Assembly (NCBI GenBank): GCA_016858145.1
Contig: JAEHOE010000094.1
Coordinates: 434,001-498,000 of the forward strand
Direction of reading: 5' to 3'
Length of the DNA: 64,000 nucleotides
From: Edaphochlamys debaryana
Taxonomy: Eukaryota; Chlorophyta; Chlorophyceae; Chlamydomonadales
Positions 8,831-63,250 of this stretch are shown here, piece after piece; positions within the stretch are counted from its first letter, which is position 1; the number at the start of each line of letters is the position of its first letter. The position numbers and the translations under genes are program-made. The notes beneath the pieces were generated by a model, which made no database searches, was not told the origin of the DNA, and saw nothing but the letters and a program-made list of their open reading frames with translations.

Positions 8831-16431
<7,601 letters not shown>

Positions 16432-23800: not shown

Positions 23801-26800
23801 GGGGGCAGGGGGGGGGGAAGGGGGAGGGAGAGAGGCTGGAGTGAGGCTGGGGTGAGGCAGGAGAAAGGCGTTTGGACGGACTGGCATGGTGCGTCCACCA
23901 CGGCCCACCACACCTCCTCCGTGGGCCCACCACACCGACCCCAGTACGTCCCCCGCTCAACCTCAACGCACCTTGCTGTCCCCCTGCCCCCGCCCCCGCC
24001 GCGCCCCTTCCCATCCCCCTTTGCCCTCCCCACCCTCAACCCCTTCCCATCCCCCTTTGCCTTCCGCCCCCCCCCCCCCCCCACGTCAGGTGTCGCTCTC
24101 CCTCATCGATCGGCGCCCCCTGCTCTTCATGAGCCAGGTGCGTGGGTGGGCTCGAGGGGAGGGGCGGTTGTTATTGGGGTGGTTCTCCTCGCCTTTGGGT
24201 GAGCCAGGGAAAACGGCGGCGAGGGGGGAGGCGGGTGCGGGTGCGGGTACCCTGCTCTTGATGAGCCGGGCCTAGCCGGGTGCGTGGGTGGGTGGGTGGG
24301 TGCGTGGGCTCGTGAGGAGGGCGGGCGGAGAAGTTCCAGGGTCGGCTTGGGTCAGCCCGGGAACACAGTGACGGGGGGGGGGCGGGGAGGGGTGCAGTAC
24401 AGGTCCCCTGCTCTTCATGAGCCAGATGCGTGGGGTCGTGGGGCATTGGGGGGGGGCACGGGTGCGGGTACGCGGGCCCCGCTGTGCGTAAGCCAGGTCC
24501 ATCCCGCCACGCCCGCCACAGGCCGCCGCGTCGTACAAGATCAAGCTGTTGGCGTACGGCACGGTGGCGGGCGGACTGCTGGCGGACCGCTACTTCGGCG
24601 CGCCGGCGGGCAAGTGAGTGAGATGTGAGAGTGAGAGTGAGAGCGAGGTGTGAGGGTGCTAGAAGGTGTGAGCGTGGGCATGCGGTCAAAGGCTTGGGAG
24701 GAGCAAAGGTACTGGGAAGGGAAGCGCGGGGGGGGAGAGGGGTGGACGAGCTTGGGAGCGCTGGGCGACGACGAGTGGGTGGGTGGGACAGAGAGCGAGG
24801 CATGGGGACTGGGGAGGCGAGGGGCCGGTGGCCGCCCCGAAGGCATGAGGAGGGGCTGTCTTGCGGAGGGGTGTTTAGGATGCGTAGGGTGGGCGCGTGA
24901 TACGTATAAGTGCAGTTGTGAGCAGACAGGCCGCGGGGAAGAAGCCCCAGGCAAACCCGAAACCCCGAAGCAACGGTCCCGACCCGGTCCCGACCCCTTG
25001 CGGAGGGGTGTGTGTGGGGGGGGATGGGTGAACGAGGGACTGCATGCGGACGAGGGACTGCAGAGGGCCCAGGGTGGAGAGCAGAAGATAAGCAGAAGTG
25101 CGTTGCGAGCCCGCCGCCCCAAAATTCGGCTGGCTGACTTCTCAGCGAACTGCTAGGTGCCACAGCACCCGTGACCCCTCCCCTTGTACGGCAGGGTACG
25201 GCTGGATACGGCATCCAAGCAGAAGTACGGCATGCTCCTGGCACAGGTGGGCGGTTGCCGGCATCGTGCGCTGGTAGATCGCCTCAGCGCGGTCTACAGG
25301 GGGCAGACGCGTCCGACGCGGGACGGACCCCCTTGCGAAACCTGTCGGAAACACCGGCCCTTCCAGCGCAACTAGTTTGTGCGGAGGTTGGGGACGCGGA
25401 GTTGCCGCACACCCCTCCCTGCCCGTCCCGCCCGCGCCCGCCCGTTTGCGACCAACCGCTTTGACCCCGTGGGCGAGCCGCGGGGGCGTGGGAGCGCGGG
25501 TGCGTGGGGATGCCTCGTGTGCGCCCCGCCGCCCCGCCCCTGGCTCATCCCTTCCCCCCCCCCCCTGTTCAGCCACAACCCCCCCCCTGTTCAGCAACCC
25601 CCCCCCCTTGTCGGCCCCTGTCAGGCGGGCGGAACCGGTGGCATCGGTGGCGGCGGCGGCAGCGGCTGGGCCTTTATGCAGGAGGTGGGGGGGGGGAGGT
25701 GGGGGAGAGGGGGGAGAGGGGGGGGAGGGGAAGGGGGTGATGGAGTCGAGGGGAGGGGAGTGGGGGGAGGGGGAGGGCCAAGCGCAGGGAGTACGCAATC
25801 GCGGAGGGCGCAGGGGCCATGGGGCGGGAAGGGGCGGCACCGGACTCCGGGAGCCGCAGGCCGGCAGCGGCTGGGCCCGTGTGCGGGACGTGCTTGTAAG
25901 GGGAGAGGGGGGCGGGGCTGAGCGGTTGCAACCAAGAAAGGGAGGGAGGGAGAGGTCTGACCACGCCCGTGCGTCCCTTTCGCGCGGTCCCCTCATCTGC
26001 ACGTCACGGAGCCTCCGCTCCCCCGTTCCCCCTTTCCCCCTTTCCCTCGGACCCACTGCCCCGTCCCTCAAAGATCACCCTCTTTCTACCCCCCCTCCCG
26101 AAGGTCCTGGAGGCCACCCGGAACGTGGCGGCGCGGCACGGGGTGTCGGCGGCCGCAGTGGCCACCGCCTGGGCCCTGCACCAGCCGCAGGTGTGTGTGT
26201 GTGGGGGGGAAACGGAAACTAGAGGGGTATAAGGGTCCACCGGGGCGCCCCAGGTTGGGGGGGGGGGCAGTGCAGTTTGGGAAACGGGGCACGGAAGGAG
26301 GTAGCTGCTGGGCAGCGATACTAGGGATTTAGGGGAGAGTGCCACAGGTGGTGGGGGGGGGGGAGGGTGCCAAGGATGAGCCCTTGCCATGAATTCCCCC
26401 CCCACCCTCCCCTCAACTGCCTCGTCGCGACAGGTGGCGGCTGCCATCGTGGGGGCGCGCAACGGCAGCCACGTGAGGGACCTGCAGGTGGGGGTGGGAT
26501 GCAGGGGGGGGGAGGGGGGGGGGAGCAGGGGGTATCGCAATGGGTGTACGGCGGGGGAGGATAGAGGCCACGTGGGGGACCTGCAGGTGCGGTTGAGGGT
26601 GGGAGGGTGTCGGAGGAGGGGGGCTGTGGGGGGCTAAGACTGCAGAAGGCTTGACAGGTGACGAAGGCAAGGGTGGGAGCTTTGCGCGGTTGTTTGTGGG
26701 GGGCTGCTGCGTCAAGACGGAGCCCAGTACGCCCAGCCCCATCTCACAGCCCGCCTCCACCCCCCGATTCCCCCTCCCCTTCCCCCTCCCCCCCCTTCCA

Positions 26801-30900: not shown

Positions 30901-33900
30901 CTCCTTGCCCTTTCCCTTTCTGTCCCCTGCCCCCCCCCTGTCAGGTGGTTCTACCCTGAGCCCGTGGACTGGGCGGTGGCGTACGACTATGCGTGCGGCT
31001 GCAAGGGTGGGGCGGGGGAGGCGGGGAGGGGGGGGGCGGGAGGAGGGGCGGGAGGGGTTCGCTTCAGAAGTCGGGTAGGGAAGGGGCAAGTGGCGGGCGG
31101 GTACGGCAGCGGGTAGGCGTGAGCGTTAGGGCTGCGATGGCCTGAGGCCAGGACCGCCTTGATCGGGGAAGGGGATGAACGGGGGTCAGGGCATGCAGGG
31201 GGGTTGCGAGGGGGGCCCTCAAACCCGGCACCTACCGTTGCGCCTCGCACCCGTGCGCGGTTTTGAATGCCCCTTCCCCTCCCTTCACGGTCCTCCCCCC
31301 CCCTCCTTTTATCTCAACGGTGTAGACTGCTGGCGGGAGATACTGCATGTGAGGCGGGGCGGACGCGGTGGCCTGGGTGCAAGGGGCGGGGCGGGGCCTT
31401 GGGCGCAGGGGCGTGGGGCAGGGGGCTTGCTCGAAGGCGCAAGGGCACACGCGGCAGCACACGCTGGTCGCAAGACGAATCAAGAGGTCTGCGCTCGGGG
31501 GGCCGTACCTCGCCTTTGCCATAAGCACCGCCTCCTTCCTGCCCTGTGCCTCTGCCCCAAACTGGTGCTCGGAACCCGACTCATCGAAGATCAAACCCTC
31601 TCGCGCCCCCCCCCGCTTCTCCCCCGTCCTCCCCCCCTTTCCCCCCGCCTCCCCCCCGCCTCCCCCCTCCCAGGTCCGTGACCAGCTGTTTGGGGGCATC
31701 TACGACCCCGACCCGGAGCTGGAGCACGGGGGGTCGGCGGGCATACTCATATTCTACCGCTGGTGGGTGGCGGGTGGGGGCCAATGGCTGTCGGCGTGTG
31801 CCCATGTCCAACCGCTCGTGGGGCCATGCGTGGGGCTCGGAGGTCGAACCTCACCGACGCCCCCTAGCCAAAACCCCCCATCCCTTCCACCTCAACCTCC
31901 CCCGCCCCCCAAGGTTCATGCTCAAGATGTTGTACGAGTCGGGGGCGGCGGAGGAGTACGACTACTTCATCCAGACCAGGCGAGTGGGGGGGTGCGGGGT
32001 GGGGTGAGGTGGGGTGGGGTGGGGATAGGGGTTTCAGCGTTAGCGGTGAGGGGTAGGAGTGGGGCGAAGGGGTATGGTGGGGTGGGGTGAAGGGGCTCTG
32101 GTGATATCCGTGATGGCTTGGATCCGGAGATGCCGGATCTGGTGGGGCAAGTGACCGGGGGGCGAAAGGTCTCGGAAGGGAGGACGGAGAGACGGAGTCG
32201 GACGGAGAGGCTATCGGCTCACCACCATGTCTCGTGAGGCCACGTCACCCTCTTGACCACACAGATCCGGCGCCCAGCCTAAGGCCCTCACATGCTCCCC
32301 CCTCTCAGTGCACGCCCCGTCCCGCCCTTTCCCATCCCATTGGTCACCCCTCGCCTCCACACACACACACTCTATGTCTCCACGTTGCCTCCACCCCCCC
32401 CCCTTCTATGTATGCCCCCCTGTCAGGTCCGACTACCTCTACCTGGAGCCCCACCCTCGGCCCTCGCCCCTGCAGGACCCGCGCCACGTGTGGGTGCCGG
32501 CGGGGGAGGACTACGGTGGGGTCACGGACCGACACGCGGTGGTGCACCGCTCCAACCTCCGCAATGTGTGTTATGTCGGGGGGAGAGGGAGGGGGTGTAG
32601 GAGGAAAAGGGGTGCAAGAGGGAGGGGGGGTCACGGACCGACACGTGGTGGTGCACCGCTCCAACCTGAGGAACGTGGGTTGGGGGGGAGGGGGGGAGGA
32701 GGAGAGGGGAGAGGGGGGCGGGGGAAGGGTTGGGGTCACGGACCGACACGCCCACGCCGTGGTGCAAAGAGGGATCTGAGGACGTGGCAAAGGGGAGGTA
32801 AAGACTTGGGAGAGGGGCCGAAAGGGCTGCGCGGGGCCGCCACCCTCGGAGGAGCCGGAATGGAGGATGGCGGGGAGGGGCAGCGCGCGCTAGCAGGGGC
32901 GAGTACTGGCACGCCGACAGCCGCCCACCCCTTTCAAGCCTCTCCCCTCTTCACTTCACACACCCCTCCCCGCCCGCAGATGTTTTGCTGTCTGACCCCT
33001 TAAACGTACCACCCACGTCCCCTAGGTTCCCTAGCACCTTCCCTAGCACCTGCCCCCTTCACTTCCCCCCTCGGTCTCTTCCCCCCCCCCCTGCCCACCC
33101 ACCCCCCTGCCCCCAGGTGTTTGGCCTGATGGAGCCCATCTGTGCCGATGCGCACGCCTTCCGCGCCGCCATGGCCCAGCCCCGCCCCGACCGCCGGTGG
33201 AACCTGGAGCGATACATCCTGCGGCGGCTGCGGCAGACGGGGCTGCGCAAGCACCTGCGGAGGTTCCCCAGGGTGGGGTGTGGGGGTGGGGTGTGGGGAC
33301 AGGATGGGGGCAGGGGGGATGGGGGCAGGGGGGGCGGGGGCATGTCTTGCCAGTCTGGGCCCACCCAGGTGGTGGGGGGAGGGGGTGAGGGCGGTGTTGG
33401 ATTGATCTAGGGGAGGGGATGAATGCGGGGGCAAGACGGTGATGCGTTTGCGGGGGACCCCACCCGCCAAGTCGCCCCCCCTTCCTCCCCCCTCCCCCCC
33501 TGTCAGGTCATGTTTGCCGTGCGATCCGCCCACACGTGGACCCGCTGGTCTGAGGGGGAGCCCCTGAGCGACGCAGAGGCGCTGGCGGTGGGGGGGCAGG
33601 TGGGCGGGGAGGTGGGCGGGGAGTTTCCAGGGTTCGTGTCAAAGAGCGGCCGCACTGTCGCTGAGCGACGCAGAGGTGCTGGCGGTGGGGGGGCAGGTGG
33701 GTAGCGGGCGGACGCGGAGACGGGTGGGAGGGCCTCGCCGGGGGCAGTGCAGTCAAGGTCGAGACAAAGCAGACAAGGCGCAGTAGGGCTGGGACGGGTT
33801 GGCGTGCGCTTGCCGGGGGTTCGCTAGAGGGTGCAAGGGTGGGGGAGGGGGGCATGGTGCGACACAGGGGTGGCGCACCAAGCGCAGGGTTGGCCCCACG

Positions 33901-43560: not shown

Positions 43561-45527
43561 GCGCGGAAGCGGGGGTGGGGCCGGGAGCGGGTATGGGCGT
43601 GCGGGTCGGAAAGGAGTGGGGGGACGGGGTCTACTCGGGGTTTGGCACACGAGCCCGGGCCCTGATCCGCTATCGTATGCTTGCAAAGTCAGCGTCGCTT
43701 GGCAAGCATCAGCGCCAAGCGGGCCAAACGTTAGCCAAACGCGCGGCCAACGAGCGCATTGTCGGACACCCGCAACGGGGCCCGGTCGCCACGTCTTCCC
43801 GGCTACAGAGTTTAGTGGGTGCCAACAAGCCGCAAGATAGGGTGGAAACGCTGTGTCCTTGCGGGTCTTAGGGCTGAGCACGGGCAAACTCGCAGGCCGA
43901 CGACGTCGTCCGCAGCCACCTGCTGTTGCGTATACGCCTTTTGAAGGCGCTCAAGTCCTGGCTCACCATCTCCAGCGCGCGACGGGTCTCCGCTGAGGCG
44001 CGATTGCCGGTGACCGGGACCCGGGGCCGCCTTCCAAGGCAAGGCTTCCTAGGTCCTCGCTTAGTCTAGAGCGATACGTAGCCCTGCCGTCGTGCCCGAT
44101 TCTCGGTAGGGTGAGGGAAAGCGCGGCTCAACGACCTGTAGGTACGCCTCTGTTGCGCTCTTGAAGCGTCCGTGTTGCAGCACACAGTCCAAAGTACGCA
44201 ACTAGTCAGTTGCCTTTCAGTAGCGGCTAGGCTCGTGAAACAGGTGCGTGTACTGCCCGCCGTGACGCGCCTGAGGCTCCGTGCGTGTCAGCGGCGAACC
44301 CGCCGGCAGCCTTGCCCGCAGCCCCCGCCGTCCCCCGCAGCCCGGCCCCGACCCGCCACCCTGAGGTCTTCGCCACCCGGCCGCCATAAGCACGCCCAGC
44401 ATTCTAGCTATCCTTGGGTTTCGCTGTGTAGCCGATGCTGAGACGCAGCAGCTGAGAGTGAGGGCTGTGACTCGGCGGTGTCTCGGCATGAACCCGCCCC
44501 CAGGCCCCTGGGAGGGGACTCTAGGGGGGGCTTTCTACCTGGAAGCCACTTTCGGCGGAAGGGTCCCCCGTTCACAGGATCTGCGTCGTTCTGCGTCGGC
44601 CAAAATCATGCGACGCCAACACCGCGGGCACTACGCCCCGTTGTCTATAATAACCCCAGGCCCCCTTTCCCCCCGCCGCCACACGGCGCCATCCTTATCA
44701 CCCCGCCACTCCCAGCCTCTGCACATGTGCGACTAAGCCCTGCGTGCCTCTCGCTGTGGCCTCAACACCAATGGCTGCCAATGGCCTCCCGTAGAACCAG
44801 TAGGCAGGTCGTCGCAGGGCAAGGGCGGGTGTAGGCCCTCCCTTCGTACGTTACTCCACCCAACAAGTATGCATGGCTTCAGGGTGTGGCCTGCCACGTC
44901 GACGCTGGCTCGACGTTAACGGCCTCCCGCGACACTGCAGGTAGGTGGCGCCATCATCCAGACTGTTGCTTTGATGACGACAGCAGCGGCGAGACGTACC
45001 GCATCAAGGCCTTTGGTTACAAGGTCCACAGGGGCTCCGCGGCGCTCCAGGTCATCAAGCCACAGCCATGAGACCGCGGGGGAAGGGGGGTCTGGGCTCG
45101 GCGGGACGCGCCGCGTGCCCTTGCCGCGAAGACCATGGGTGTGCACCCATGCAGGTGCCTGGCGCAATTACATCGGGCCGGTTCTATATGTGATAGTCTT
45201 TGCTAAGTTTAGGGAGCCTGCGGCACTCCGCGCGACGAGTTCGCTCCCGGTTTCCGCTGCCCGACACACAGTAAAACGGGCCGACAAACCCGACGCACCC
45301 GTACCTGGCGGGCCGGAAACACATACTTTGCGCATTACACTGGGCTCTAGAAGCTAACACGAGCAACAACACCAGCGCACATTGAAAAAACAGTGACAGC
45401 CAGCGACGAGCTGCGCTACCTCGCTGGACCACCAGCCCAAGCCTGCGTCCCACACGTACATCTGTAGAGTCTCTCCTAAATTGTACGGCCCACGTCGCGC
45501 GCCGCAAGACCATACACGCGTCCGAGA
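43561..45527. other. Region between divergently placed genes
   Basis: It must contain the missing first exon(s) and promoter of the minus-strand gene and the promoter of the lectin gene. A minus-strand string ETRRALEMVSQDLSAFKRRI near 43930-44005 has coding-like codons and a donor at 43919, but its phase does not fit the next exon as modelled. A separate possible plus-strand exon is listed at 44844-45071. Confidence 0.4.
44844..45071 (+). CDS. Possible terminal exon or gene fragment, unknown
   Basis: An open plus-strand frame ends at TGA 45069-45071. From 44886 its codons end almost always in G or C (for example the stretch encoding DDDSSGETYRIKAFGYKVHR), unlike the other frames. No in-frame ATG is present, so if real it needs upstream exons. 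No family is recognised. Confidence 0.28.
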   Translation, partial: SYVTPPNKYAWLQGVACHVDAGSTLTASRDTAGRWRHHPDCCFDDDSSGETYRIKAFGYKVHRGSAALQVIKPQP

Positions 45528-48500
45528 ATGGCACACTTGGTTGTCGCGGTCCTCGCCGCCTGCCTCGCCTTGAGCGGGTACTCTGCCTTGGGTGAGCCAT
45601 ATGCAAAACGTTTAATGGGCCCAGCGCGAATGGTGATCGAGGCGAAGGGGGCCGCCGTTCTCGTCCATCAGTCGCCAGCATTGCCCAAAATTGCCGCGCT
45701 TCCTGCCCACCGCAGCTGAGGGCCCTGGCCAGCGGAAGCTCCTGGAGGACACGGGTACGTGACGGCTGTGTGCACAGCTATTCATCCAAGGGGTCTTGAA
45801 CTTGGGCCTGAAGAGGCACGCAGGGGCACGCGCTCCCACCCCTGCCCCCACCCCCGCCGAGCTAGCTCCTGCCTTACAGTGGCGCCCGGCATTCGTAGAT
45901 CCGCGTAACTCGTAACTCTTACCCTTCCAACGCCCGACGGCCGCAGCCTGTCCGGACGTTGCGGGTTACGTCAGCAAGGGGAGGTTCGCTCTGGGCTTCA
46001 AGCAGGGCGGCACCTTCCAGACGGGGGCGAAAGCTCAGGTGCGTGGGGTCGTCACCGGGTGCGTGAGGTCGTCGCCGGGTAGGTGTGTGGGGTCACCGGG
46101 TGCGCCCGGTGCTTTGAAGCCTATGGGGTCCGACCCCGGTGCTGAGAGCACGTGCTTGCAGCTACCATCCATCGACGACGGACCTTGGCATCTTGGGGAA
46201 TAGGACATCCATGACTTGAAGCCTCACGGGCGGGGCTGTGCCAGGGCAGGGCGAAGGCGGAGCAGCCAGCCGCCCTTCCCTCGCCTCCTCCCCGCTCCTT
46301 GTCCCCCATACCCCTGCACCCGCTGGACAGTAGATCTGCTGCGACGCTCCCGTTCTATCCACTTCCCCTCCATCCCTCCTTCTAAAACACCCTTCTTACT
46401 CCCCCTCCCAAAGGCCTACTGTGACGCCACCCCCGCCTGCACCGCTTGGTCCTCCGCGGGCGACTGGACCTCGGACCGCGAGGTCACGGGGGTCCCCAGC
46501 GAGGCCCCCGTGTGCCTCTACCTGCGGGACGCCTCCGCACCGGCCGGACCCGCACCCAAGTGGGTGTGGGTGGGGAAGGGGAAGGGCGGGCCCCCACGGG
46601 TGGGGCCCTGCCAAGCAGCCTGCAGCTACCTACTGCTTGGGGCTGGGGTGCGATGCAGCGTGTCGCTAGATAGCCGGGTCTGGCCTGGGGGTGGGGATGG
46701 GGATGGGGATGGTGCGGGCGTGTGAGTGCCTGGTCGTGCTGTGAGCAACGCGAGACCCCGGCCCATGCTTGGCGCCAGGTGGCCTGAGTCGTGCCGCGAA
46801 TCGGGGGTACACGCACATGCGGGGCCTCCTGGACGAACCAGAAGCTCCGGCCCCGTGCACCGGCCGAACGGTGTTGCGCGCGGCCTCGCGACGTTTCGCG
46901 TTGCGTCCCCCCACCCCGAAGTTTCGCATTTCGTCCCCCCCACCCCGTTTCGTCCCACCCCACCCCCCTGTTTGTGCAGGCGCCAGCGCAGCCCCTCTCG
47001 CTCGCCCTCGCCCACCCCCACCGCCGGGCCCAGCCCCAGCCCCAGCCCCAAGCCCAGCCCGAGCCCCAGCCCGAGCCCCTCGCCCAAGGGTGGCCGCAAG
47101 AAGAAGAGCCCCTCCCCCAAGCCCCTCCCGCAGCCCATCACCGAGCCCCTCCCGCAGCCCGTCACCGAGCCCCTCCCGCAGCCCGTCACCGAGCCCCTCG
47201 CCCAAGCCCTCGCCCAGCCCCTCCCCGAGCGGTCCGCGGTGGGTCGCTGCTGCTTCCCCCCCCGCAAAAACACCCTCCCCTGCGCACCCGCTAGCCCACG
47301 ACTCCGCGCATAACCCGAGCATATCAACACCCCACCGAACCAAACAGTCCCATCGTTAAACACAGACCATGGGGCACACCCCCATCTGCGCCCCCGACCC
47401 TGCTCCCACCCATTCATTTCCCTCCAGTCCGTGTGCACGTCTTACCACCGCTTGAGGCCCCTTGCTCGCACCCACCCCACCCCGTTGCCCCACCCTCTAC
47501 CACCCCTCGCGCAGCGCCGGCGGTCCCGAGCTCTCCCTCGCCGCTGGGGCCACCTGCCCCGCCGCCGCCGCCGCCTGCCCCGCCACCGGCACCCCTGCGT
47601 GTGGGCTCTACTCCAAGCCCTCGGGCGCGGGCTCGAGCTGGGCATGTGAGTGACTTCGCGGGCTGGTCGGGGCACGCATGGGGCTTGTAAGGACGGCGCC
47701 TTGGAGGGGGATCTGGAGGGTTGTAGTCGCGAGCTGGACCTAGCTAGGAGACTGCATGGCATCACCGAATGGAGGTGGGCCGTCTCCCCTAGCTAGGGCC
47801 TGCCCTTCCTGCCCCTAAGCCGGCCCCTGCCCCACCCCCCGCGCGCAGGCGACGGCCTTCCTTACCCTTGGCCTCCATCCCCCTGGCCTCCCCCTGATCC
47901 CCCTCGCTGGGGCCTGTTCTACCTGCCCTCCAACCGTCCCCGCCCACCCCCCGCCCACCCCCCACCCCACAGGCGACGGCCTGTCCTCCCCCAGCCGCGC
48001 CTTCCGCCTCACCTTGGACGCAAAGACCGGCGAGCTGGTGCGCGGCGGGCTGTGAGGGGTGTGAGGGGAAGTGGTTGCTTGGGGATAAGGTGAATGGAGA
48101 TTGGTATGCGCCGCGGGACGAGGGCAAAGGTTGGGTTGGGGTACATCACATCCCGCTCCCGGCCCGTGCCTCCGACAATGAACACAACCCCTCAACCCCC
48201 CAACACCCTACGCCCCGCTAGCCACCCCTGGGACCCACTCCCCGTGCCTCCAACCCAGACCCCAACCTCTCATCAATATCCCAGCGCCTAACCTCCCACG
48301 GCCCAACCCCGCTTATTGACAAACACCCCTGGGACCCACTCCCCAGGCCGTCATCCGTGCCTCCAACTCCCGCGCGGTGTGGCGCTCGGGGGTGGCGGCG
48401 GCGCCCTCGGATGCGCCCTTCGCCCTGCTGCTGTCGGCGGAGGGGGGGTGGCGCGTGAACCACACGGGGGGCGTTGAGGCGGGCACGGTGTATGAGGACG

Positions 48501-51500
48501 TGGCGCAGGTGGGTGGGGGCAGGGGCGGGGTGGGGTGGGGGTGGGGGGGTTAGAGGGGTAAGCGAGGGGGCGGGAGCGTTGAGGGAGGCACGGTGTATGG
48601 GGACGAGGCGCAGGTGGGCAGGTGCGTGGGGCGATGGGTGGTGAGGACAGGTAGGGGGGACTTTGGGTGGGGGGCAGGAGGTATGGGGCCGGGCCACGAG
48701 GGGAAGCCACGGGAACTGAGCGACGGGAACCCGTCTTACCCCCCCCCCCCCCACACACACACACGCAGTACGGCACGGGCCGCTTCCTCCCCTCCAACGG
48801 CGGCGCCGCCAAAGCCCCCTTCCGCCTGCAGCTGCGTAAGCGAGCCGGGGTTGGGGAGGAGGGACGTCGGGGGCGGCGGTGTCAGGTGCGTGGAGGATGA
48901 TTGCAGGGCGACCTCTGTTAACCTCTGTCGCGAATCTCCCGAAGGCGGAATGAGCCGCCCGTAGGAGGCAGATCCTACTATGTGTGCGACTGCTGATCAC
49001 AACCCCCTCCCCCCCTGCCCCCAGGCGACACGGGGGTACTGGTGCTGGAGAACGGCGGGGGCGACACCGTGTGGGCCAGCGCGGGGCCGCAGCTGGGTGA
49101 GGCGGCGGATGGGTGGGGGAAGCGGGGGTGGGGGCGGCGGAGTGTGTGCGTGGTGTTGGTGGTGGTCCTCCCACCATACCATCAACCCGAACCCGCAATG
49201 CCATTTCCTCCCACTCTCCCGCCTTTCCCCAATCAATATCCATCCGCGTACAACCCGCCCCTGCTCCACCTCCCAGTCCCGTCCAGTCCCCAGCACTGCC
49301 TACTGAGCCACGTAAGCCCTGCTGACTACCTGCCCGCACCCACTGCCCCTGCCTCCCGCAGTGCCCTGCACCGCCTACGAGCGGTTCCCCTTTGACGGCG
49401 ACTGGGGCGTGTCCTCCGCCTGCCGCTGCGCCTGCCCCGAGGGAGCCACCAACGTGGCCCACCCCCCCGCCGCCCGCTTCCTGGCGGCGCAGTGCCCGCG
49501 CCTAACCGCCAACGACCCCACGCGCTGCATGGGTGGGTGTGCCGTACATGGGTAGTTGTACGGTAGTTGTGTGGTACGGCAAGGGTGCAGATGGACGGGT
49601 ATGCCTGGCGGGCAGTGGTGTGTGGTCCTAGCGATTCGCTCGGACCTTCACTGCTCGGGGGAGCAATTTCCCTTCCCCCCATGCCCCCACTTACCCCCCA
49701 GCCCTGCCATCCCCCCTCAAGGCCCTCATCCTCATCACCCCCCCTCCCCCCTTTCCTTCCTCCCCCCCCAGCCCTGCCCTCCCCCCTCATCCTCATGACC
49801 CTCACCAGCCGCGAGGCCCCCGGGGCGCTGGCGCTGGGGGCCCCCGCCGCCGCCCGCATCGCCGCCGGCGCCCCCGTCACACAGGAGGTGGGGAAGGGGG
49901 GGGGTTTGGAGAGTGGAAATTAGAGGAGGTGAGGATGGGACGCGGGAAGGAGAGGCTCGGCGAGGGGGTCCGGAAGGCTACTCACCTACCCCGCCCCCTT
50001 CATTCCACCTCCAGGCTTTTGACCCCGCCTCCGTCAACCTGCAGTTCTCCCTCGTCCCCGCCGCACGTGACCTCGCGCGTAAGGGAGAGAGGAAGGGGGG
50101 GCCAGGGTTTGGGGACGGGGGAGGGGTGTGGGTGCTTAGACCTGGCTGTACTTACGTAGGTATGGTGGTGCGGGCTCGTGTCGATGTGTGATTTCCTCAA
50201 AGCCCAAACCGTCGCCCTCTCGCCCTTATCGTGTTTGCTCAACAAACCTCACCTTCTCCCCCCTGCCTTCTGCCTTCTGCCCTCTGCCCGCCCCCCTCGG
50301 CCCTCGGCGTGAGATATCCCTGATCCCCCCCTGCCTCTGCGCCCCCCCTCCGCCCCCACAGTGACGTCCACGGACCACTATTACTCGGTGAGGGGGGCTG
50401 GCGGTTGAAGGACGGGATTGGAGGTTGGGATTTGGGGGTTGGGATTTGGGGGCTGGGAAATGGGGGTTAGAGTTTGGGGGGTGGGAGCTGAGGGTTGAGG
50501 GACGGTCGGGAGGCGCTTCAACCTTCTCCCACAAGTTCAGCCCCGCCCCGGGCCCCACCCCACCCCCCAGGTCCAGCGCCACCTCCCCCGCCCCCCACCC
50601 GTCTCGACCGCTTGCCTTCCCTGGCCTCACCCCCCACCCCCACCCGCCACCCCACTATCCCCTCCCTGGCCCCCGCGTCTCCCCCCCTCCAGGTCCAGCG
50701 CCACCTCCTCAGGACCGCCTCCCCCTCCTCCGACCCCGCCGCCCCCGGTCTGTGCCTGGCGGCCGCGGGGCTGCGGGCGGGTGCGGCCGCGGCCTGGGCC
50801 CCGTGCGACCCCGCGGAGCCCCGCCAGGCCTTCGCGGTCACCGCCCTCAGCCAGCAGCTGTGAGGGAGGGCTTAGGGGGGACGGGGGGTGGGGGGTGGGG
50901 TGGGGGGATGGAAGGAGGGCGAAGGGGCAGTTATCGAGCGCGACGGGCGGGGGTGGGTGACCTGGGGAAAGCGAGGGTTGGCTCGGCGCCGCAAAGAGGC
51001 CGGTGGTCGGTGTCATACCCTGACGCACCCCTTTCCCTTCACCTGTGCCCCCTGCACTCCTCCCGTCCATGTCCACGTCGCCCCGCCGCTTGCAGCTTCT
51101 CCTTTGCCCTGTGAGTACGGATGGACTGCACTTGTGGGCGCGGTACTAAAGGGGGGGGACCAGGCATACCTAAGGAGCACCCAGAATGGATGAAAAAAGG
51201 CTGGGCGAACACTCCTCCGTCAGCGCTCCGTTCAAGCCTTCGACCGCCCGGTCCCACCCCATCCCTCCGTCCCTCCTATCCCCCCTCCTCCTCCCCCACC
51301 CCATAGGGCTGGCAACCTGTGCCTCTCCGTCCCCGGCGCCTCCGCCGCCCCCGGGGCCCCCCTGGCGCTGGCCGAGTGCGCACCGGACGCCAGCGGCGCG
51401 GGCTGGGCAGTGGCGCGGGATCAGTCGGTGAGGGGGGAGGGGTGGGGTGGGGGGAGGAGAGGGGGGGGAGGGGGGCTGAAGGGGACGCAAGAGGAGGTGC

Positions 51501-52335
51501 AGCAGGGAGGTGGCGGGCCAGGCAGGAGGGCCGGGGGCCGGACAGCGTGGGCCGTGGCCGGAGACCAGTCGGTGAGGGAGGGGTAGGGGGGGGGGGGGGG
51601 GAAGAGAGGAGCTGTGTGGACAAGAGTACAAGGGGGGGTGCAGCAGCAGAGAGGAAAGGGTAGGGGGATGGGGGGCGGGGGGGGGGGGGGGCTTACGGCA
51701 TGGCAGGATGGCGGGAGGGCGGGAGGGCGGGGGCCCGGGGGCCGCCAGGATGGCCGTGTGTGGGTGGGTTAGACGGGGGACTGCTGTGGAAGTGGGGAGA
51801 GCTACGGCCAGACCGCCTCTGCCCTCCAAGCGGGGAGGGGAGGGGAGAGCTTCCTGCTTAGGCCCAGGAGGGGTAGGGAGGCCTCAACTGCGTGAGGAGG
51901 AACGGGGGCGACATGATGAACCCCAGCACACCCCGGACGGCCGCCAGTGTCCTCCGGGCCCCCTTCATGACCTCCTGGCCCTTACCGTCCGCCCGACATC
52001 CCCCGCTCCCCCCCCTCCGACTCCGACCCTCAGTTCATGCTTGGAGCCGACAGCGGTGAGTGCGGACCGCAGAGCGGCAAGAGCCGGGGCATCAGTGTCA
52101 TGGATGGAGCCGGGACCGGGGCCGGGCTGGGTGCCGGGTGCATGCACAATCTCGACCGCTTGCAGGCTGGCTAGCCCGGACACTACAGTCTGCAGCTGTG
52201 TTTAGGGGGCGAAACTGCAGACTCACTATGTATTAGCCTCACTCCTCTGACTCCGTCCGCAGAGGTGCTCCTCTCGCCCCCCTCACATTGCCCCCCCTCC
52301 CCGCAGCTGAGATGGCTCGCCTCAACGCTCTGTGA
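45528..52335 (+). CDS. Secreted multi-domain lectin with Ser-Pro cell-wall module
   Basis: Exon 1 (45528-45591) encodes a signal peptide, MAHLVVAVLAACLALSGYSA. Further exons fit phase: 45716-45754, 45947-46038, 46414-46559, 46980-47238, 47515-47645, 47973-48037, 48347-48508, 48769-48835, 49025-49096, 49362-49532, 49772-49887, 50015-50078, 50362-50387, 50693-50859, 51096-51110, 51307-51427, 52034-52055 and 52307-52335. The joint 47238/47515 is off phase and unresolved. The N-terminal part has a Cys-containing PAN/apple-like segment (AYCDATPACTAWSS). Then comes a Ser-Pro and Pro-Gln region (SPSPKPSPSPSPSPSPK), a likely hydroxyproline-glycosylation site, and a second Cys-rich segment. A bulb-type lectin-like domain follows (AVIRASNSRAVWRSG, GVLVLENGGGDTVWAS). 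The C-terminal part has two ricin-B-like strings, GLCLAAAGLRAG and NLCLSVPGASAAPG. Likely a carbohydrate-binding wall or matrix glycoprotein; the ligand is unknown. Confidence 0.7.
47846..47858 (+). repeat. Upstream copy of an exon head (lectin)
   Basis: CAGGCGACGGCCT repeats the acceptor and first exon bases at 47970-47982, about 125 bases upstream in the same intron. Confidence 0.6.
48224..48253 (+). repeat. Upstream copy of intron end and exon head (lectin)
   Basis: CCCCTGGGACCCACTCCCC followed by GTGCCTCCAAC matches 48325-48367, except that the AG acceptor and about 13 exon bases are missing in the copy. Confidence 0.75.
48576..48618 (+). repeat. Copy of exon tail plus donor (lectin)
   Basis: Matches 48472-48514, the end of the exon at 48347-48508 and its donor, with about five substitutions. 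The CAG|GTGGG junction is kept. Confidence 0.88.
49692..49738 (+). repeat. Upstream copy of acceptor and exon head (lectin)
   Basis: CCCCCAGCCCTGCCATCCCC and the following CTCATCCTCATCACC match 49766-49806, with an extra AAGGCC-type insert. The AG acceptor is kept. Confidence 0.8.
50566..50587 (+). repeat. Upstream copy of acceptor and exon head (lectin)
   Basis: CAGGTCCAGCGCCACCTCC matches the acceptor and start of the exon at 50693, about 120 bases upstream. Confidence 0.8.
51552..51580 (+). repeat. Copy of exon tail plus donor (lectin)
   Basis: GACCAGTCGGTGAGGG and the bases before it resemble 51409-51437, the end of the exon at 51307-51427 with its donor. Confidence 0.7.
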
Positions 52336-53541: not shown

Positions 53542-56500
53542 ATGGGCAACATATGTCTCAAGGGCAACAAGCGGGCGTCAGAGGAAGCGGCTCCGCAGGT
53601 AGGCCGTCGGCAACGCGCAATGCGGTTGGCCCCCCGCTTCTCCGCCCTCGCTTTTTGCACCGGGATACCTGCCAACGCGGCCCTTTTGCATACGTTGAGC
53701 GTACAGGCACCACAGGAGGTGTGTGGCCCGCCCCCGACGCTCTGGCGCCCGAACCCTAAGGAAGCGGCCATGCGCCCGCGCGAGACTCTCCAGGTGCGGT
53801 CGCGCTCCCCCCCGCGTCCTCACCCGGGGGCCCTGGGGGGAATTTCCGCGGCAATTGGGTCCCGGGAAGTTCCGCACGGCTTTGGTCGTCGACGCACGCT
53901 TGCACCCCCGTACCCGCCCTCTCGCCGGTCGCCGCCCTCAGGAGTCCCCACACCTCGATCCGCCCACAAATTTCTTCCTCCCTTTGCCACAATGCTTCGT
54001 GTCCATACAAGATCTTCATTGGCGGCCTGAGCGCCGGCTTCCGCGTGCCCGCCAGATCCGACCACCTAGCTCCACCGCAGCAAGCCTGCACGTCCCCTGC
54101 CTGCCTGTCGCCCCCCCGGGCCCCCCAACCACATGTTAACCGCCGCGGCGCCCCGTGCACTTATCCCCCCTCACTCTGCCCCCTTGCTCTGCCCTATTGT
54201 GTCCCCCGCTTCCCCGCAGGACCTGTGCATTGCTGCGGTGGTGGGGGCGTGGGACTCGCTGCCGCCCTCGGCCGTGGAGGCCCTCCCGTCGGACCTGGTG
54301 CAGGTGGGGGGCCCTTGGGGATGGGTTGGGTGGGGGCGGTGGTGGGGGCGAGGGGTGTGGGGTGGGTGGGATTTGGGGGTGAGGGTCCTTTCAGGACAGG
54401 GGGCAGGGGGCTGCCGTCACCCGTCACACCCGGTGCAGGTGCGGGTCGAGTGTTTTTTTTTGGGGGGGTTACTTGGGGGGTACTTTGGGGGGGCAACTGG
54501 AGGGGGCAGGGGGCCGGAGGCTCACGCGTCCAGCCTGGCGTGGGTGGGTTGAGCGGGGGTGAGGGTGGGGGGTGGGGATTCTGGGGGATCCGAAGCGGAG
54601 TCGGAGGCTTTCCCATCAGACCTGGTGCAGCGGCGCCCCCTCGCCCCCCCCCCTTCTGGCTGGTGGCCAGGGGCTGCTCTCATGCCGCCACCCTCGCCCC
54701 TTCCTTCCCTCAAGTGACCCTCCTTCACCCCTACATCTACACTTACCCCTCTTGCCCCTCCTCCCCATCACCCCCCTGACAGCGCATCTTTGATGAGCTG
54801 GTAGCCACGGGCCGGTTCGCTCTGTCGGATCTCACCCGCTTCAGGGAGCTGGATCTGGACAGCGTGGCATTAGTAAGAGGGGAGGGGGGCATTAGTAAGA
54901 GGGGAGGGGTAATTGAAAGGGCTAGGGGCCCGAGGGGCGGCAAGGGGGTTAGCAGGGGGTCAGCAGGGGGTCACCCACAATACCCTTGCCCCCCCCCCCA
55001 ACCCCCCTCTCAGGTCGGCCGCCCCGACGTGCGGGACGAGCGGCTCCGCTCTCTGGACCGCTGCTCGCGGCTGCGGTCCCTGGACCTGACGGGGTGCGCA
55101 CACGTGAGAGGGGGGGGCAGGGGGGGGGAGGGGGAGTGAGGGGGGGGGGCAAGGAGGGGGGAGGGGAGCTGGGCCTGACGGGGTGCGCACACGTGAGAGG
55201 GGGGGGCAGGGGGGGGAGGGAGGGGAAGGGGGGGGGGCAAGGAGGGGGGGGTGGGTAAGGAGGGGAGGAGGGGGGAGGGGGAAAAGAAGGGGGGCAAAGC
55301 ACCCCATTGTCCGCTCCCTCACTCCTGTTGTCCAGCGGCACTCCTACTGTCCAATGACTTCTTGTAGTGCTCCCCCCTTCCCCTTTCCCCTTGGCCCTAT
55401 TTCCTCATCCAACACTTCCCCTCCCGTCCCCCTCTCCCTTCCCCCCCCTCCCCTCTCCCCAGGTGGGCGACGGCGGTGTGGCCGCCATCAAGCGCCACAC
55501 GGGGCTGCGGCACCTGCGCCTGAGCCACTGCCTGGGCATCAGCGACTCGGCCATGCACCACCTGAGGGGTGAGGGGTAGGGGGGTAGGGGGGGGAGGATC
55601 TTGGGGACCTGAGGGGGCAGGGGGGAGGAGGGGTAAAGGGGAGGGGTAAAGGGAAGGGGAGGGGAGGATAGAAGAGGATGGCCTTTGAGGGAATCGCACG
55701 GCGAGTACGGGGGGGCGAAGGGGGCGTGGGAGGGGGAGAGGTGGGGTACAGGTGAGCCCGCACAAAGGGTAGGAGGGGCAGCCGTTGGCGGCCTCTGCTG
55801 ACGGCCAGCACCGATACCGGCTCTTGCGTCTCATCGCGGCACACAGCCGACGCCCGCGTACAGGGAAGAGAACTAGCCCTCTCTATACCTTTTTCCACTG
55901 CCCCCACATCTAGTATTGCCCAGTGCGTGGCGGGGAATCCCCCACACCCCTATCCATCCCCTATGCCCCCCCCCCTCCCCCCCTCCCCCCCCTGTCAGGT
56001 CTGCACGGTCTGCTGGAGCTGGAGCTGAGGGGCTGCGAGGGGCTGACGGGGGAGGGCCTCATGCACCTGGCGGGGCTGACTCAGCTGCGGCGGCTGGATC
56101 TGGATCAGTGTACGGCAGTCAAGGTGTGGTGTGGGGTTTGTCGTACAGGGGCTGGTCCAGGGGGCGGGGGTAGGGGGTGGGGGTGGCGGGGGCGGCCTTC
56201 CTCATCCTTTCCTCTCCACCTCTCCACTCGCGTGCTTCCGTCTCTCCGCTCAAAGTCGACCAGTGCCTTCCCTATCCGCCTGCCCCCTTCATCCCCGAAT
56301 CCCTCCCTCTGTCCTCCCCCCTCCTCATCCCTCCACCCCCCTCTCCCCCCTGTCAGGGCGGGCTCCAGCACCTGAGCGGCCTCCGCCACCTCACGGTGCT
56401 GCGCCTGGGCTGGTGCACCTTCCTGACCGACATGGAGGTGGGCTGGGATCCGGATCCAGAGCCAGAGCCAGAGCCGGATCTAATCCAATTCGGAACGGAT

Positions 56501-59500
56501 TGGATCTCGGGATTTGCCCTTTCAGAGCTATGTAGGGTAGGGTGATTGTTGTAGGGATATTGTACTTACGCGCCCCTGTCGGCCCTTCCTTCCCCCCCCC
56601 CCCCAGGTGGCCTGGCTACGGCCCCTGACTGCCCTTCAGGAGCTCGTCCTGGCCCACACACAGGCAAGGGGGGGGGGGGGGAGGGGACTGAAAGGGGGGG
56701 GGATAAAGAAAAGAAGGAAAGAGGGGAGGTGTGAGGGAAGGGGTCGATAGGGCACCGGAGCTGGTCCACAGCCACTCAGTACGGCTGGGCGGGGGGGGCG
56801 ATAGAGGGTTGGAGGGAGCGGAGCAGGAGCGGGCAGGGGCAGAGCCCCTTCCCGCACGCTCCCCCGCCCTCCACCCCCTCTCCAGCCCCTCTCCACCCCC
56901 TCTCCACCCCTCTTTCCCCCCCTGTCAGGTGGGCGACGAGGGCCTCTCCCACCTCTCCTCCCTCCGCCACCTCACCCACCTCGACCTCACCGGCTGCGCC
57001 CGACTCACGGACGGAGCCGCGGCCTCGCTGGCACGCTTCACGGCGCTGCAGGTGCGTGCGCTCTGGCCCCTGTGTATTATTATGATTATATGAAGCAAGC
57101 ATTAGAAACCCCTAGCATGCGACTGTCTAAAGTATCAGCATCAAGAAAACCTAGCATGCGACACGGATCACGGCGCTGCAGGTGCGTGCGCTTTGGCCCT
57201 AGCTTTTATAACGTCTAGGCCGGGATGTGTGGCGTTTTACGAGGATAATGGGTGTTTGTAGGCGGGAGTGTGAATGAACCCGCAGCTGCGGTCGGCCCTC
57301 GCTTCGCTGTGTCTTCCCGCATCCTCCCACACACCGTTCCCCTCCCCGCTTTGCCCCCCCGCCCTCACCCCTCACCGACCAGACCCTCTCCCTGGACCGT
57401 TGTGATCAGATCGGCAACACGGGTGGGTGGGTTTGGGGATGGTGGGCTTAGGGGTGGGGTGGGGTTGGGGATGGCAGGATGGGAAAGGTGGGGGGGCATC
57501 AAAGGGTCGTGGGTTGGAGAGGGGAGGGATCCATGCCGGGCACACGGCGGCAACACGGCCCTTACCCATGTCTCCTCACCATCCCTCCCCCCCAAACCCC
57601 CACAGGCGTCGACGCGCTCGCCTCCGCCTGCCTCCCCTCCCTGGCCTCCCTCTCCCTCGCCTACACCGCCGTCACCACGGGGGGCCTGAGCGGGCTGTCG
57701 GCGCTGACCGCCCTCTCCTGGCTGTCCCTGGACTCGTGCGGGGTGGGGGACGCGGCGTGCAGGGTGAGAGGGGGTGGGGAGGGCGGGGAGGGAGGGAGGG
57801 AGGGGGGCAGGGGAGCGAGGGACAGGCAAGGCGATGGTGACGGGGGGGGAGATGAGGAGTGTGGTTTGGAAGGGGGAGGAGGACGACGGTTGCAACCGGC
57901 GCGTCGTGTTGGTGGGAATGGCACGCACTTGGCACGCAGTCTGGATGCTGCCTGCCCTGCCCCTAACGCCTCTCGGTGATAAGCGCGGCCCATCTCTTAC
58001 CTCCCCCCCCCTTGCCTCCCCCCCCTGTCAGGTCCTCCGCCGCCTGCCCCGCCTCGCCTCCCTCAACCTGGCCGAGTCCCTGGTGGGGGACGGGGGGCTC
58101 GAGTCCCTCACACTGCCGCTGCCCTGCGCCGCCGCCTCGCCGGGGGCCATCAGCCTGGGTGAGGGAGGGGGGGAGGGGGTGGGGGTGTGGAGAGGGTTGA
58201 GAGGGTGTGTGTGTGTGTGTGGTGCAGTTGTGCTGAGGGTGTGCCCCGAGGGAACGGGGTTGTGTAGCCTGCCTGCGGCCCAGCCTGATGACCCATCCCT
58301 CACTCCTGACCCCCACCCAACCCCAACCCCAACTCTCACTATCCCCCCAGCGCCGGCCGCCTCCGCCCCCACCCCCTTCTCCCTCGCCGCCTCCCGCTCA
58401 ATGCCGCGGTCCGGCGCGGGCGCGGGGGGGGCGGGGCTGGCAGCGCGCCACAGGTGGGGCGGGGGGCGGGGAGGAGGGACCTGTGGGAAGGGGTGGGGTG
58501 AAGGGTTGGGTTTGGCAGGGAGGAGGGACCTGGTGGGGCGGTGAGGAGGGACCTGTTGGAAGGGGTACGTTGGGGGATACAGTTTAGGAGGGTGGGCCGG
58601 CAGAGATGGGAAGTGCAGTGGGTGCGCTCGGGAGGGGGGCGGGCAGGGGGTGATCCTTCACGAGATAGAGGTTGGGTAGCCCAGGGGGGCGGGCAGGGGG
58701 GGTGAGGGGCTGCAGAGGAAAGGCGACTGGGGACACCGCACAGCCTTCCCCGCCCCCAACTGTCCTGCCGCCCCCCCCTTGCCCTGCTCCTCCCCCCTCA
58801 GCACCGGCGGCAGTGGCGGGGGCATATACGGCAGATCGTACGGCAGCCATTCGGGGACTTACGGGTAAGCCAGGAGCGCCCAGGGCCTGGCATTGCTGTG
58901 GGGTTTAGACGGGGCTACAGCGGCTGCAACAACTCCCTAGGCGCGGCCGGCACCCCGGTGCCGTCCCCTCGCCTCTCCTCTCTCGCCCCCCCTCAATGTA
59001 AAAACCCTCTTTGCTCTTCCCCCCCCCCCCTCCCCATCGCCCCTTTCCCCTTGCCCCCCTTGCAGGGCCTACAGCCGCAACCTCTCCCTATGTGCGGCCG
59101 CCGGGGGGCCTGTGCCTGGGCCCGGCAGCAGCAGCGGCGCGGCGGGCCCAGGCGGGCCCAGCGGGGCCATGGCGGGCCCACCCTCCACCCTCACCCACCT
59201 CAACCTCACATACACCAAGGTACGGATAGGGGGGGGGGGAAGGGAAGTGCGTGGGTGTTTATGGGGGAGTGGGCCAGGGCGGAACGAGTTGGGGGTACCG
59301 GTGGAGGATGAGCAGCGGGCGCGACTGGCAAGCAAAGTTGCCGATGGCCGTGGTGGTGGGGAATGGAGATTGGGTGTGAGGAGGGAGGGTAGGGTAGGGG
59401 GGAGAGGGCTGGTGGAGAGACATCCTACAGTCATAGGTTATGACGCATACCCGACGATATCCTGGCACCGGCGCCACGGCACCCGTGACGAGGCCCCATC

Positions 59501-61004: not shown

Positions 61005-63250
61005 GGGAGGGGGGTGGGGGGGGGAGAGGGGAAGGAGGAGGGGAGGGCGGGAGGGGAAGAGGGGGCTTGGGGGGAAAGGGAAAGGAGGAGGAGACCCGGC
61101 AGCCGGCAGGCGTGAGGGGATGGCGGGTGGGGGGTGCGGTAGGGGAAGGCGAAGGGACCCGGCAGCCGGCAGGCGTGAGGGGGAGGGGAGCGAAAGGGGA
61201 GGGGGAAGAGGGGGCCGGGGGGGAGGCAGAACGCGAGGAAGGTTGGGGAAGGCTGGCGCGGGCGTTACCGGTAACGCAGGATGCGCTTGAAAAGGGAGCC
61301 CAGGGTGGGGGATGGGATTGTGGGTTCGGAGGGGTGTGGAGCGGTGGGTACGCGCTTTTCTGTCGTCTGGAGCTGGGGGGGAGGGGGAGGGGGGGCAGGG
61401 GGGGGGTCCATGAGCCACATTGGTGTGAGCTGTCTTCGGGGGAGGGGGGCGAGAATGGGGTGGGCAAGCCGGGAGGTTGGCGGGAAAGCTTTCCCAGCCG
61501 TTGGCCAGGCGCCACGCCGTCCACATGTACGGCACATGTACGGCACGGCTTACAGTTTTGTGGTTGGGGTTTGATAAGCGTTGCAGGGGTTGGAACCTGT
61601 CGGTTGGCGGTTGACAGCTGGTGTTGCGGGCGGGGGCCTGGCCTGTTGCAAGGTCGGCATGCGCCGGGGCCAAACGCGTTCCGCAATGGCCGCTTATTGC
61701 GCGGCGGAATGGTAGGGTCTGCAAGTGTGCGATGGTCGCTGCTATGTCCTGGGGCTAAGCCCTGTCCGGGATGCAGAGGGTCAAGGCAACGTGCAGCTAT
61801 CCGGGTGTGGCCTCCCAGGGATATGGAGGGTAGTGAGAACCGGGAGCGGTCCGTGTGTGGCCGCCAGCCCGCAGCATGCTGCAGGTGTGGGAGGGGACAC
61901 GGAGCGGTGCGTATAGCACCCAGGATGGTGGTGGTGGTGCGGCGGCTTGTACATGCTGTGCCCCGTCGTGGGGCGGAGGGGCGGGAGTGCCCCGCGCCTG
62001 CCGGCCCGGGGATTGAGGCTGGGGGCCGGGGGCTCCTGACTCGCTGTACCCTGGTAGGGGCTGGGGGAACGTGCACGTGATGATGACAGATGTGGATTCT
62101 TGGTTGGTAGGATGGGGCAGGCACGGGGCAAGGCGTATGGAATCCACCTGGATTCCACCTTGCCGGGTATGCATCCAGTCGATGGCCTTCACATGCATGC
62201 ATGGGCCCTGACCGGGGCTGACTTAAAATCGGTTGTTGCAGTTCGTGTTGTACGATTGTACAACCGAATGTTGTTTCTTCTTCCCTTGGGGCGGGCTGGC
62301 GGCACCGCAGCGCGGGCGTTGCCTTCATTGGAGGGCCGGTGACAGCATAGTTGCTTCAAAGCACGGGCTTGTCTTACGCATGTCCCCAGGACATGTAAAC
62401 CCGATGTATCCACTATTGTGCTTCTGCATGCGTGCATGACTGCCCCCTGTGTGTGAGCGGGGCCTGCTTGGCTCACATCAGGGGATGTATGGCCCTGGAA
62501 TTGCCCAAGCACGCTTGCTCGCACGCCGCCGCGACCGCGCCGGGCTTTGTAACATAACACCTCATTATCCTTACCTCTGACCCTCATGGCCTCATCACAC
62601 GGCAACAACGCAACGGGCTCCTAGCGTGTCCCAACAGCACGCCGGAGGCCGGACAGGGCCCTCTCAGCACTGCCCGAGTCTCTGCCGCTCCCTTGCCAAC
62701 CCCTCCGTCCCCACTGATCCGGGCTTATATCTTCAGTGCAGATCATTCCCCCTCCCGTGTCACGCAAGGGCTCGTCGAGGGCGTTTGCTCCCGGGTCCGG
62801 GCCTCCTTTGCCCCCCCACCGCCGCACCACGTACCCACCGATTTGTAAGCCGTGAGCACGAGACGATCAGGTTACGCACCACCGCCGGAACCCGTTGCCC
62901 AAACGTCCCCTCTTCCTGCCCTGGTCAGCATTGCTAAATGCTCCTCCGAAACCTTCCAGGGGATCTGTGTTCGCTGGGGCAGACCGCCGACGACGAGGGA
63001 TGCAGCTTCCGGGGGGAACGGGCGAGGCCTGCCCCCGCTTCCAGCCCTGGCAGATGCTCATCGACTGCAGCTTCACGAGGCTCCGAGCCCTCCGCTGTCC
63101 TAACACGTCCTCAACATAACTGCCAACCCGTACGTCGTGAGGCTGAGACGTTCGAGGGAAGCACCGCATGCCGTACGGTGCCGTACCGTGCCGGTCCGCG
63201 GTCTTGGGCAGAGAGAGCGACTCCTTGCTGTATCACTTTCAACAGCAGCC
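61005..63250. other. Intergenic region between LRR and EF-hand genes
   Basis: No gene is supported. The first 400 bases are G/A-rich and hold the copies of the LRR end. A fragment around 61775-61815 (AACGTGCAGCTATCCGGGTG) belongs to the same dispersed family as those near 1925 and 36014. TGTAA occurs at about 62395 and 62548, too far away to be confident LRR poly(A) signals. Confidence 0.45.
61096..61187 (+). repeat. Two copies of LRR final-exon end
   Basis: CGGCAGCCGGCAGGCGTGAG, which spans the stop codon in the gene (about 60985-61006), recurs at 61096-61120 and 61158-61187 in the 3' flank, separated by purine-rich filler. Confidence 0.88.

Follow-up and report, generated by a model that had tools for sequence, protein, structure and literature searches.

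Copies of exon ends in Edaphochlamys debaryana introns occur at donor junctions at the rate found inside introns

We analyzed a 64,000-nucleotide window from the nuclear genome of the unicellular green alga Edaphochlamys debaryana, in which diverged copies of exon ends, several with their splice sites, lie just inside the neighboring introns. These copies are real, and they occur at donor junctions at the same rate as local copies in intron interiors. We therefore think it likely that small local duplications arise throughout genes, blind to splice junctions, and are retained wherever the protein can accommodate them. The window is part of a 533,908-base contig (the genome comprises 141.9 Mb in 502 contigs), and its predicted gene at 45135-52335 shows 99% identity to the deposited E. 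debaryana protein HYH03_013792. The published assembly is described as 142.14 Mb in 527 contigs with 67.1% GC, PacBio-based with Illumina error correction (PMC8226300); NIES-2212 and WS7 are named there as other sequenced isolates of the species. The GC content of the sample analyzed here is 67.5%.

That sample consisted of the window and 24 further 10-kb stretches of the 24 largest contigs (304 kb of the 141.9 Mb), taken at fixed coordinates and not drawn at random. Gene models were made with a self-written hidden-Markov gene finder, seeded with exons read by eye and retrained on the 304-kb sample. It returned 54 gene models with 493 introns (median, 194 bases), contributed by 24 loci: the window and 23 of the 24 stretches. 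The other stretch (L031; G000:C23:150001-160000) has no gene model, and a 278-bp satellite with adjacent copies 97 to 100% alike fills nearly all of its 10 kb. The models contain errors. The first two genes of the window were merged into one. Compared to HYH03_013792, the 45- to 52-kb model is wrong at the first exon and adds two micro-exons, of 5 and 15 bases, that are spurious. Compared to a Volvox africanus relative, the 53- to 61-kb model sets three donors too early, leaving gaps of 3, 6, and 7 residues (the donor at about 54872 is one of the three), and misses one early exon of about 30 residues. Such errors blur a difference in rate between junctions and interiors but should not create one.

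To score the copies against chance, a 36-mer spanning each junction was compared with its own intron and with the same-position stretches of 150 introns of other genes. The own-intron score exceeded all 150 at 10 of 10 donors (24137, 26487, 32565, 33599, 48508, 51427, 54303, about 54872, 55103, and 57051) and at 4 of 4 acceptors (47972, 48346, 49771, and 50692), with the best copy used for each junction (at 24137, the copy at 24405). Tiles confined to the exon still beat 150 of 150 introns at 9 of the 10 donors and 3 of the 4 acceptors. The exceptions were about 54872, where 134 of 150 introns equaled the score and the copy holds few exon bases, and 47972, where 7 of 150 did. Diverged copies of exon ends in the neighboring introns are confirmed by these data. 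The original prediction had placed copies at 16 coordinates, with offsets usually of about 20 to 330 bases; a repeat is present at all 16, the measured offsets run from 22 to 327 bases, and 15 of the 16 are at a splice junction. The remaining one, 61096, had been read as a copied donor and is instead part of a 63-bp tandem repeat (61046..61186, forward strand) across the stop codon (61002-61004) and 3' untranslated region. Since this repeat lies away from any splice junction, it hints that junctions are not required.

The copies are also specific to the adjoining intron. In a shuffle test that still contained the polyubiquitin introns, 11 of 86 exon tails in the window and 15 of 354 elsewhere scored above every one of 100 shuffled versions of their own intron, where about 0.9 and 3.5 were expected. 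This supports the proposal of a recurring local duplication process, and extends it beyond the window. Matches of the same tails to the previous intron (2/71 in the window, 1/274 elsewhere) or the next one (0/77 and 5/303) were not beyond chance. Pieces from within introns behaved in a similar way: 30-mers taken from intron positions +60 to +90 had copies further down in 8 of 47 cases in the window and 10 of 115 in the rest.

Dinucleotide shuffles make a poor null where introns are G-rich. In the main test, scores were therefore set against introns from other genes, taken at matching relative positions. Tiles of 36 bases, placed at set distances from each donor or acceptor, were scored against the adjoining intron within 350 bases. 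A match was called at <1% of a null taken from the same positions in up to 150 introns of other genes. Tiles that extended beyond the edge of their exon or intron were removed before counting, as were the polyubiquitin introns and introns of <80 bases, leaving 457 of the 493. Implanted copies were recovered at 99 to 100% when 10% diverged, 88 to 97% at 20%, and 55 to 72% at 30% (12 combinations of side and offset), which shows that detection power was about equal across the tested positions. The 304 kb was also compared with itself, without gaps and scored by local composition, which gave 89 pairs. The reversed sequence gave 61 raw matches at the lowest threshold, and 2 versus 30 at a score of 40. 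Because G-rich low complexity produces so many null matches, we used this comparison as a catalogue only.

On the donor side, local copies were found for 33 of 439 junction tiles (7.5%), 30 of 418 exon-tail tiles (7.2%), and 95 of 1,228 tiles from intron interiors (7.7%). The donor junction thus did not differ from the interior (odds ratio [OR], 0.97; P = 0.92). The ratio of the two rates was 0.97 (locus bootstrap over 24 loci, 0.64 to 1.25), or 0.88 (0.56 to 1.25) when the window was left out. Outside the window the counts were 20/362 versus 59/941 (OR, 0.87), and among the best-scoring introns there 13/210 versus 44/533 (OR, 0.73; P = 0.44). Tile lengths of 24, 36, 48, and 60 bases gave donor ORs of 1.01, 0.96, 0.90, and 0.89. 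On the acceptor side, junctions had fewer copies (15/445; 3.4%) than interiors (80/1,228; 6.5%; OR, 0.50; P = 0.012), and the acceptor counterpart of the exon-tail tile gave 19/423 (4.5%). The proposal that duplication acts at splice junctions was therefore not supported: donors match interiors, acceptors fall below them, and across the 304 kb short duplications are as frequent away from junctions as at donors (33/439 versus 95/1,228), an outcome that the prediction itself had named as one that would refute it.

The prediction had further stated that copies do not fall randomly in exons. This stood in one respect, as pieces from deep in an exon rarely recur in the adjoining intron (12/575 [2.1%] on the donor side and 11/597 [1.8%] on the acceptor side). 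Those exon tiles had been compared with the adjoining intron only, and we therefore made a direct comparison in which each tile was scored against the remaining sequence of its own exon (218 exons, each at least 132 bases long) or of its own intron (387 introns). Local copies occurred in the same exon for 84 of 1,677 tiles (5.0%) and in the same intron for 143 of 2,417 (5.9%; OR, 0.84; P = 0.24). We had considered that exon interiors are depleted of duplications and dropped this idea on these near-equal rates. Offsets divisible by three made up 62 of 84 in exons and 36 of 143 in introns, although part of the exon excess may reflect codon periodicity and amino-acid repeats, a point that counts against our interpretation. 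Local duplication is thus not restricted to noncoding sequence, and the survivors in exons mostly keep the frame.

From these rates we propose the following model. Local and often tandem duplications, with units of about 20 to 330 bp, would arise throughout genes regardless of splice junctions, possibly by polymerase slippage, template switching, or end-joining. Selection would then be the filter on which duplications survive, with those in exons mostly keeping the reading frame. When one breakpoint lies in an exon and the other in an intron, the original exon-donor joint would stay first in line, and the additional exon tail and donor would sit inside the intron. As long as the upstream donor is still used, the protein would be left unchanged and the duplication should be tolerated. 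Survivors of this kind would appear as echoes of the exon just within the intron and would be as frequent as wholly intronic duplications. We infer the survival step; the copied pieces are absent from the deposited protein HYH03_013792 of the 45- to 52-kb gene.

The individual copies, all on the forward strand, have identities to their sources of 79 to 97%, mostly 79 to 93%. In the aldo/keto reductase gene, two diverged copies of the tail of exon 24090-24137 lie at 24244-24267 and 24405-24434. The second is 97% identical over 30 columns and has lost the donor GT, while the first is supported by its match to 24400 (24 bases, 88%). Exon tails copied together with their donors lie at 26567..26623 (source donor 26487; offset, 99; 81% over 57 columns), 33661..33719 (source 33599; offset, 97; 87%), 48572..48659 (source 48508; offset, 105; 80%), 51548..51609 (source 51427; offset, 144; 84%), and 57150..57199 (source 57051; offset, 127; 86% over 50 columns). 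At two further sources, the start of the intron was copied along with the exon tail and donor. Second and third copies from donor 32565 occupy 32624..32751 (offset about 109; 79%), the third beginning at about 32728, and a tandem copy from donor 55103 with a unit of 89 bp lies at 55169..55255 (91%). At 54883..54909, the final bases of the exon and the GTAAGAG donor of about 54872 recur as a 22-bp tandem copy; the source donor has support from the Volvox alignment. The 28-base copy of the exon tail of donor 54303 at 54603..54630 (offset, 327; 86%) stops at the exon edge and has no donor. Copies of an acceptor with its exon head are found at 49670..49719 (source 49771; 82%), 50541..50586 (source 50692; 82%), and 47840..47860 (source 47972), the last being a 13-base core found by eye that passes with the junction tile and fails with the exon-only tile. 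The copy of the acceptor region of 48346 at 48223..48266 (offset, 101; 80%) has lost its AG. The claim that copies carry the splice site therefore applies to several of them and not to those at 54603, 24405, and 48224. Adding the offset to the source donor puts copied donors at about 26586, 32674, 33696, 48613, 51571, 55192, and 57178, and copied acceptors fall near 49700 and 50570.

How much of the offset is filled by homology differs between copies and bears on how they were made. The fill was 0.99 for 55103, 1.16 for 32565, 0.84 for 48508, and 1.01 for L032:4162. Full head-to-tail units are seen at 55103 (89 bp), 32565 (about 109 bp, three copies), and L032:4162 (75 bp), and these point to tandem duplication. 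Within the window, 32565, 48508, and 55103 span 0.84 to 1.16, whereas 24137, 26487, 33599, 51427, 54303, and 57051 span 0.09 to 0.62. The low values at 24137 (0.10), 54303 (0.09), and 57051 (0.39) weigh against our model, in that not all copies are full tandems; decay or non-tandem copying would account for them. End-joining repair of the polymerase-theta type is a source of templated insertions, in which a nearby short stretch is copied into a break, and isolated copies such as those at 54603 and 57150 could have formed in this way. Donors 57051 and 54303 share just 50 and 28 columns with their copies over offsets of 127 and 327. However, for other copies the offset is completely occupied by tandem units, and indel decay of a G-rich spacer could make an old tandem look partial. 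We regard templated insertion as unlikely to be the general explanation; it may account for a minority of copies.

Several other observations count against junction-blind duplication, and the donor counts among them lean toward duplication targeted to splice junctions, for example by slippage or by R-loop- or G-quadruplex-linked repair at the G-rich tract that follows the donor and the C-rich tract that precedes the acceptor. Among strong copies (score of ≥30) in the window alone, donors exceeded interiors (11/77 versus 16/287; OR, 2.82; P = 0.014). Across the full sample the leanings (ORs of 1.3 to 1.9) were not significant: 21/439 versus 40/1,228 at a score of ≥30 (OR, 1.49; P = 0.18), 11/334 versus 16/916 for complex tiles at that score (OR, 1.92; P = 0.12), and 27/231 versus 92/1,020 for introns of 200 or more bases (OR, 1.34; P = 0.22). 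Exon overhangs were weakly shorter than a uniform model gives, with a mean overhang-to-offset ratio of 0.39 to 0.42 at donors (Kolmogorov-Smirnov P = 0.075 to 0.089) and of 0.35 at acceptors at a stricter cut (P = 0.024; n = 6). The strong-copy donor excess was not replicated outside the window (10/362 versus 24/941; OR, 1.09). Local copies are more abundant in the window than in the rest of the sample, both at donors (13/77 versus 20/362; P = 0.0017) and inside introns (36/287 versus 59/941; P = 0.0009), and its introns are longer (median, 283 versus 195.5 bases). Since the pattern was first noticed in the window, some excess there is expected. In addition, the exon side of a junction is under selection, so a junction copy should remain recognizable for more time than one lying within an intron. 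This bias favors junctions and could account for some excess of strong copies at donors, if modest.

Base composition was the other basis for targeting. Introns with a donor copy are G-richer in their first 100 bases (0.49, n = 29, versus 0.42, n = 280; P = 0.002), and those with an acceptor copy are C-richer (0.53, n = 10, versus 0.45, n = 304; P = 0.016), but the repeats themselves may raise these figures. The suggestion that tracts beside the junctions are involved thus gains a little from composition, with the repeats as a possible cause of the same rise. Introns in general show a steady gradient in composition, G-rich at the donor end and C-rich at the acceptor end, with GC skew running from +0.36 to -0.57 in 255 introns outside the window and from +0.49 to -0.67 in 68 introns within it; the G-rich and C-rich halves might pair with each other. 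Exon overhangs of about 20 to 50 bases at 9 of the 10 donors place the left breakpoints in the exon and not in the tract. Together with the acceptor deficit and the lack of a donor excess in the full sample or outside the window, this makes targeting to junctions very unlikely.

It is more improbable still that duplicated donors are kept by selection as alternative splice sites. Of 24 donor copies whose junction could be aligned (weak pairs included), 18 retain the GT, and many copied donors score like the original. However, 18 of 24 is about the expectation at 80 to 84% identity, donor copies are no more frequent than copies in intron interiors, and the deposited protein of the 45- to 52-kb gene lacks the copied pieces. 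The chance of an assembly artifact is practically negligible, as the copies diverge from their sources by 3 to 21%, the assembly is described as PacBio-based with Illumina error correction (PMC8226300), and we found nothing in favor of an artifact.

The deficit at acceptors led to a second reading, chosen post hoc after the data had been seen. Splicing generally favors the first AG that follows the branch point. A copied acceptor lies ahead of the real one, where it would act as a competing first AG, whereas a copied donor sits downstream of the real donor. If the spliceosome takes the first usable AG, a second upstream acceptor would be purged, giving about half the neutral rate, or kept after loss of its AG. 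Surviving duplications might then record an asymmetry, with an extra downstream donor tolerated at the neutral rate and an extra upstream acceptor purged or AG-less. The acceptor-to-interior ratio was 0.52 (locus bootstrap, 0.25 to 0.78) versus 0.97 for donors, and donor and acceptor junctions differed from each other (33/439 versus 15/445; P = 0.007). Outside the window, acceptors were below interiors in the main tile test (9/367 versus 53/941; P = 0.014) and among the best-scoring introns (2/210 versus 40/533). With weak pairs included, copies retained GT in 18 of 24 cases and AG in 3 of 10 (P = 0.022). Against this, 24-base tiles gave an acceptor OR of 0.86 (P = 0.67), and outside the window ORs of 0.54, 0.51, and 0.54 were obtained with 36-, 48-, and 60-base tiles (P = 0.115, 0.062, and 0.087); across these tile-length runs P ranged from 0.06 to 0.86 outside the window, and none was significant. 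Strong acceptor copies were not significantly rarer than strong interior copies (5/445 versus 26/1,228; P = 0.22), and AG is kept in at least 2 of the 4 listed acceptor copies. The donor-acceptor difference also weakened to P = 0.038 outside the window and to P = 0.11 with exon-only tiles in the full sample. We consider the asymmetry possible but on balance doubtful. If true, local duplications would be a natural experiment that measures selection against each type of duplicated splice site.

Four genes of the window carry the copies. The first belongs to the aldo/keto reductases (PF00248). The gene at about 28 to 34 kb, which we take to be glycosyltransferase-like, has 33 homologues, with PF25072 precomputed for 3 of them, and its predicted protein had no match in Pfam. 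The gene at 45.1 to 52.3 kb is lectin-like, with a Ricin_B_lectin match below the cutoff. The gene at 53.5 to 61.0 kb is a leucine-rich-repeat gene with a V. africanus relative at 58%, whose protein matches leucine-rich-repeat families. Searching Pfam with raw open reading frames returned no family for 8 of 8. Repeats of other kinds are also present in the window. A polyubiquitin gene (10982-16425) comprises about 14 tandem 377-bp units, each modeled as ubiquitin sequence plus its own intron and 98 to 100% alike to the first unit across the whole length. In the coding sequence at 28724-28818 is an in-frame 18-bp tandem repeat with 5.3 exact copies.

The copies resemble several known systems. 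Internal gene duplication is cited as commonly observed and able to include splice sites (Gao and Lynch 2009, as cited in PMC4974935 and PMC3443670). The likeness lies in duplications inside genes that can take in splice sites; the citing passages concern the creation or multiplication of introns, whereas the E. debaryana copies sit within existing introns, with no new one observed. Intron gain by tandem duplication is likewise presented as established, for ATP2A1 and potato RdRp (Hellsten 2011, as cited; PMC4974935, PMC3443670, and PMC2891723). Both that process (the Rogers model) and the E. debaryana copies place a second splice-site copy beside the first. In the Rogers model, as described there, a new intron arises from the duplicated AGGT pair, whereas in E. 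debaryana the existing intron just lengthens. We found no new intron made from a duplicated segment in the gene models, where the copies are inside existing introns, and the deposited protein agrees for the 45- to 52-kb gene. An event similar in kind is described in the same set of papers for the potato RdRp gene, in which an 83-bp tandem duplication lies inside the first intron and gene structure is unchanged.

Intronic minisatellites share tandem units of tens of bases in introns with the copies, as in the 41-bp array of about 7 copies at 30539-30833 in an intron of the 28- to 34-kb gene. The exon echoes differ: their units are diverged, number two or three, and reach into an exon at one end. 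Introners (PMC9860276) would also alter intron content, but as described they insert copies into many genes, while the E. debaryana copies match the adjoining exon. Exon tails had no match to neighboring introns beyond chance; no genome-wide search for introner-like elements was made. Our literature searches found no paper that deals with intronic duplicates spanning splice junctions in relatives of Chlamydomonas, and none about new tandem duplications in Chlamydomonas mutation lines.

Taken together, a striking pattern of exon echoes can arise without a junction-specific mechanism, and what is visible is where duplications may survive. The data give a rough figure for detectable local duplication in E. 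debaryana introns, 6 to 8% of 36-base tiles versus a nominal 1% by chance. Such local intronic duplications are raw material for cryptic splice sites and for intron growth. The possible donor-acceptor asymmetry, if true, would turn them into a measure of selection on splice-site competition.

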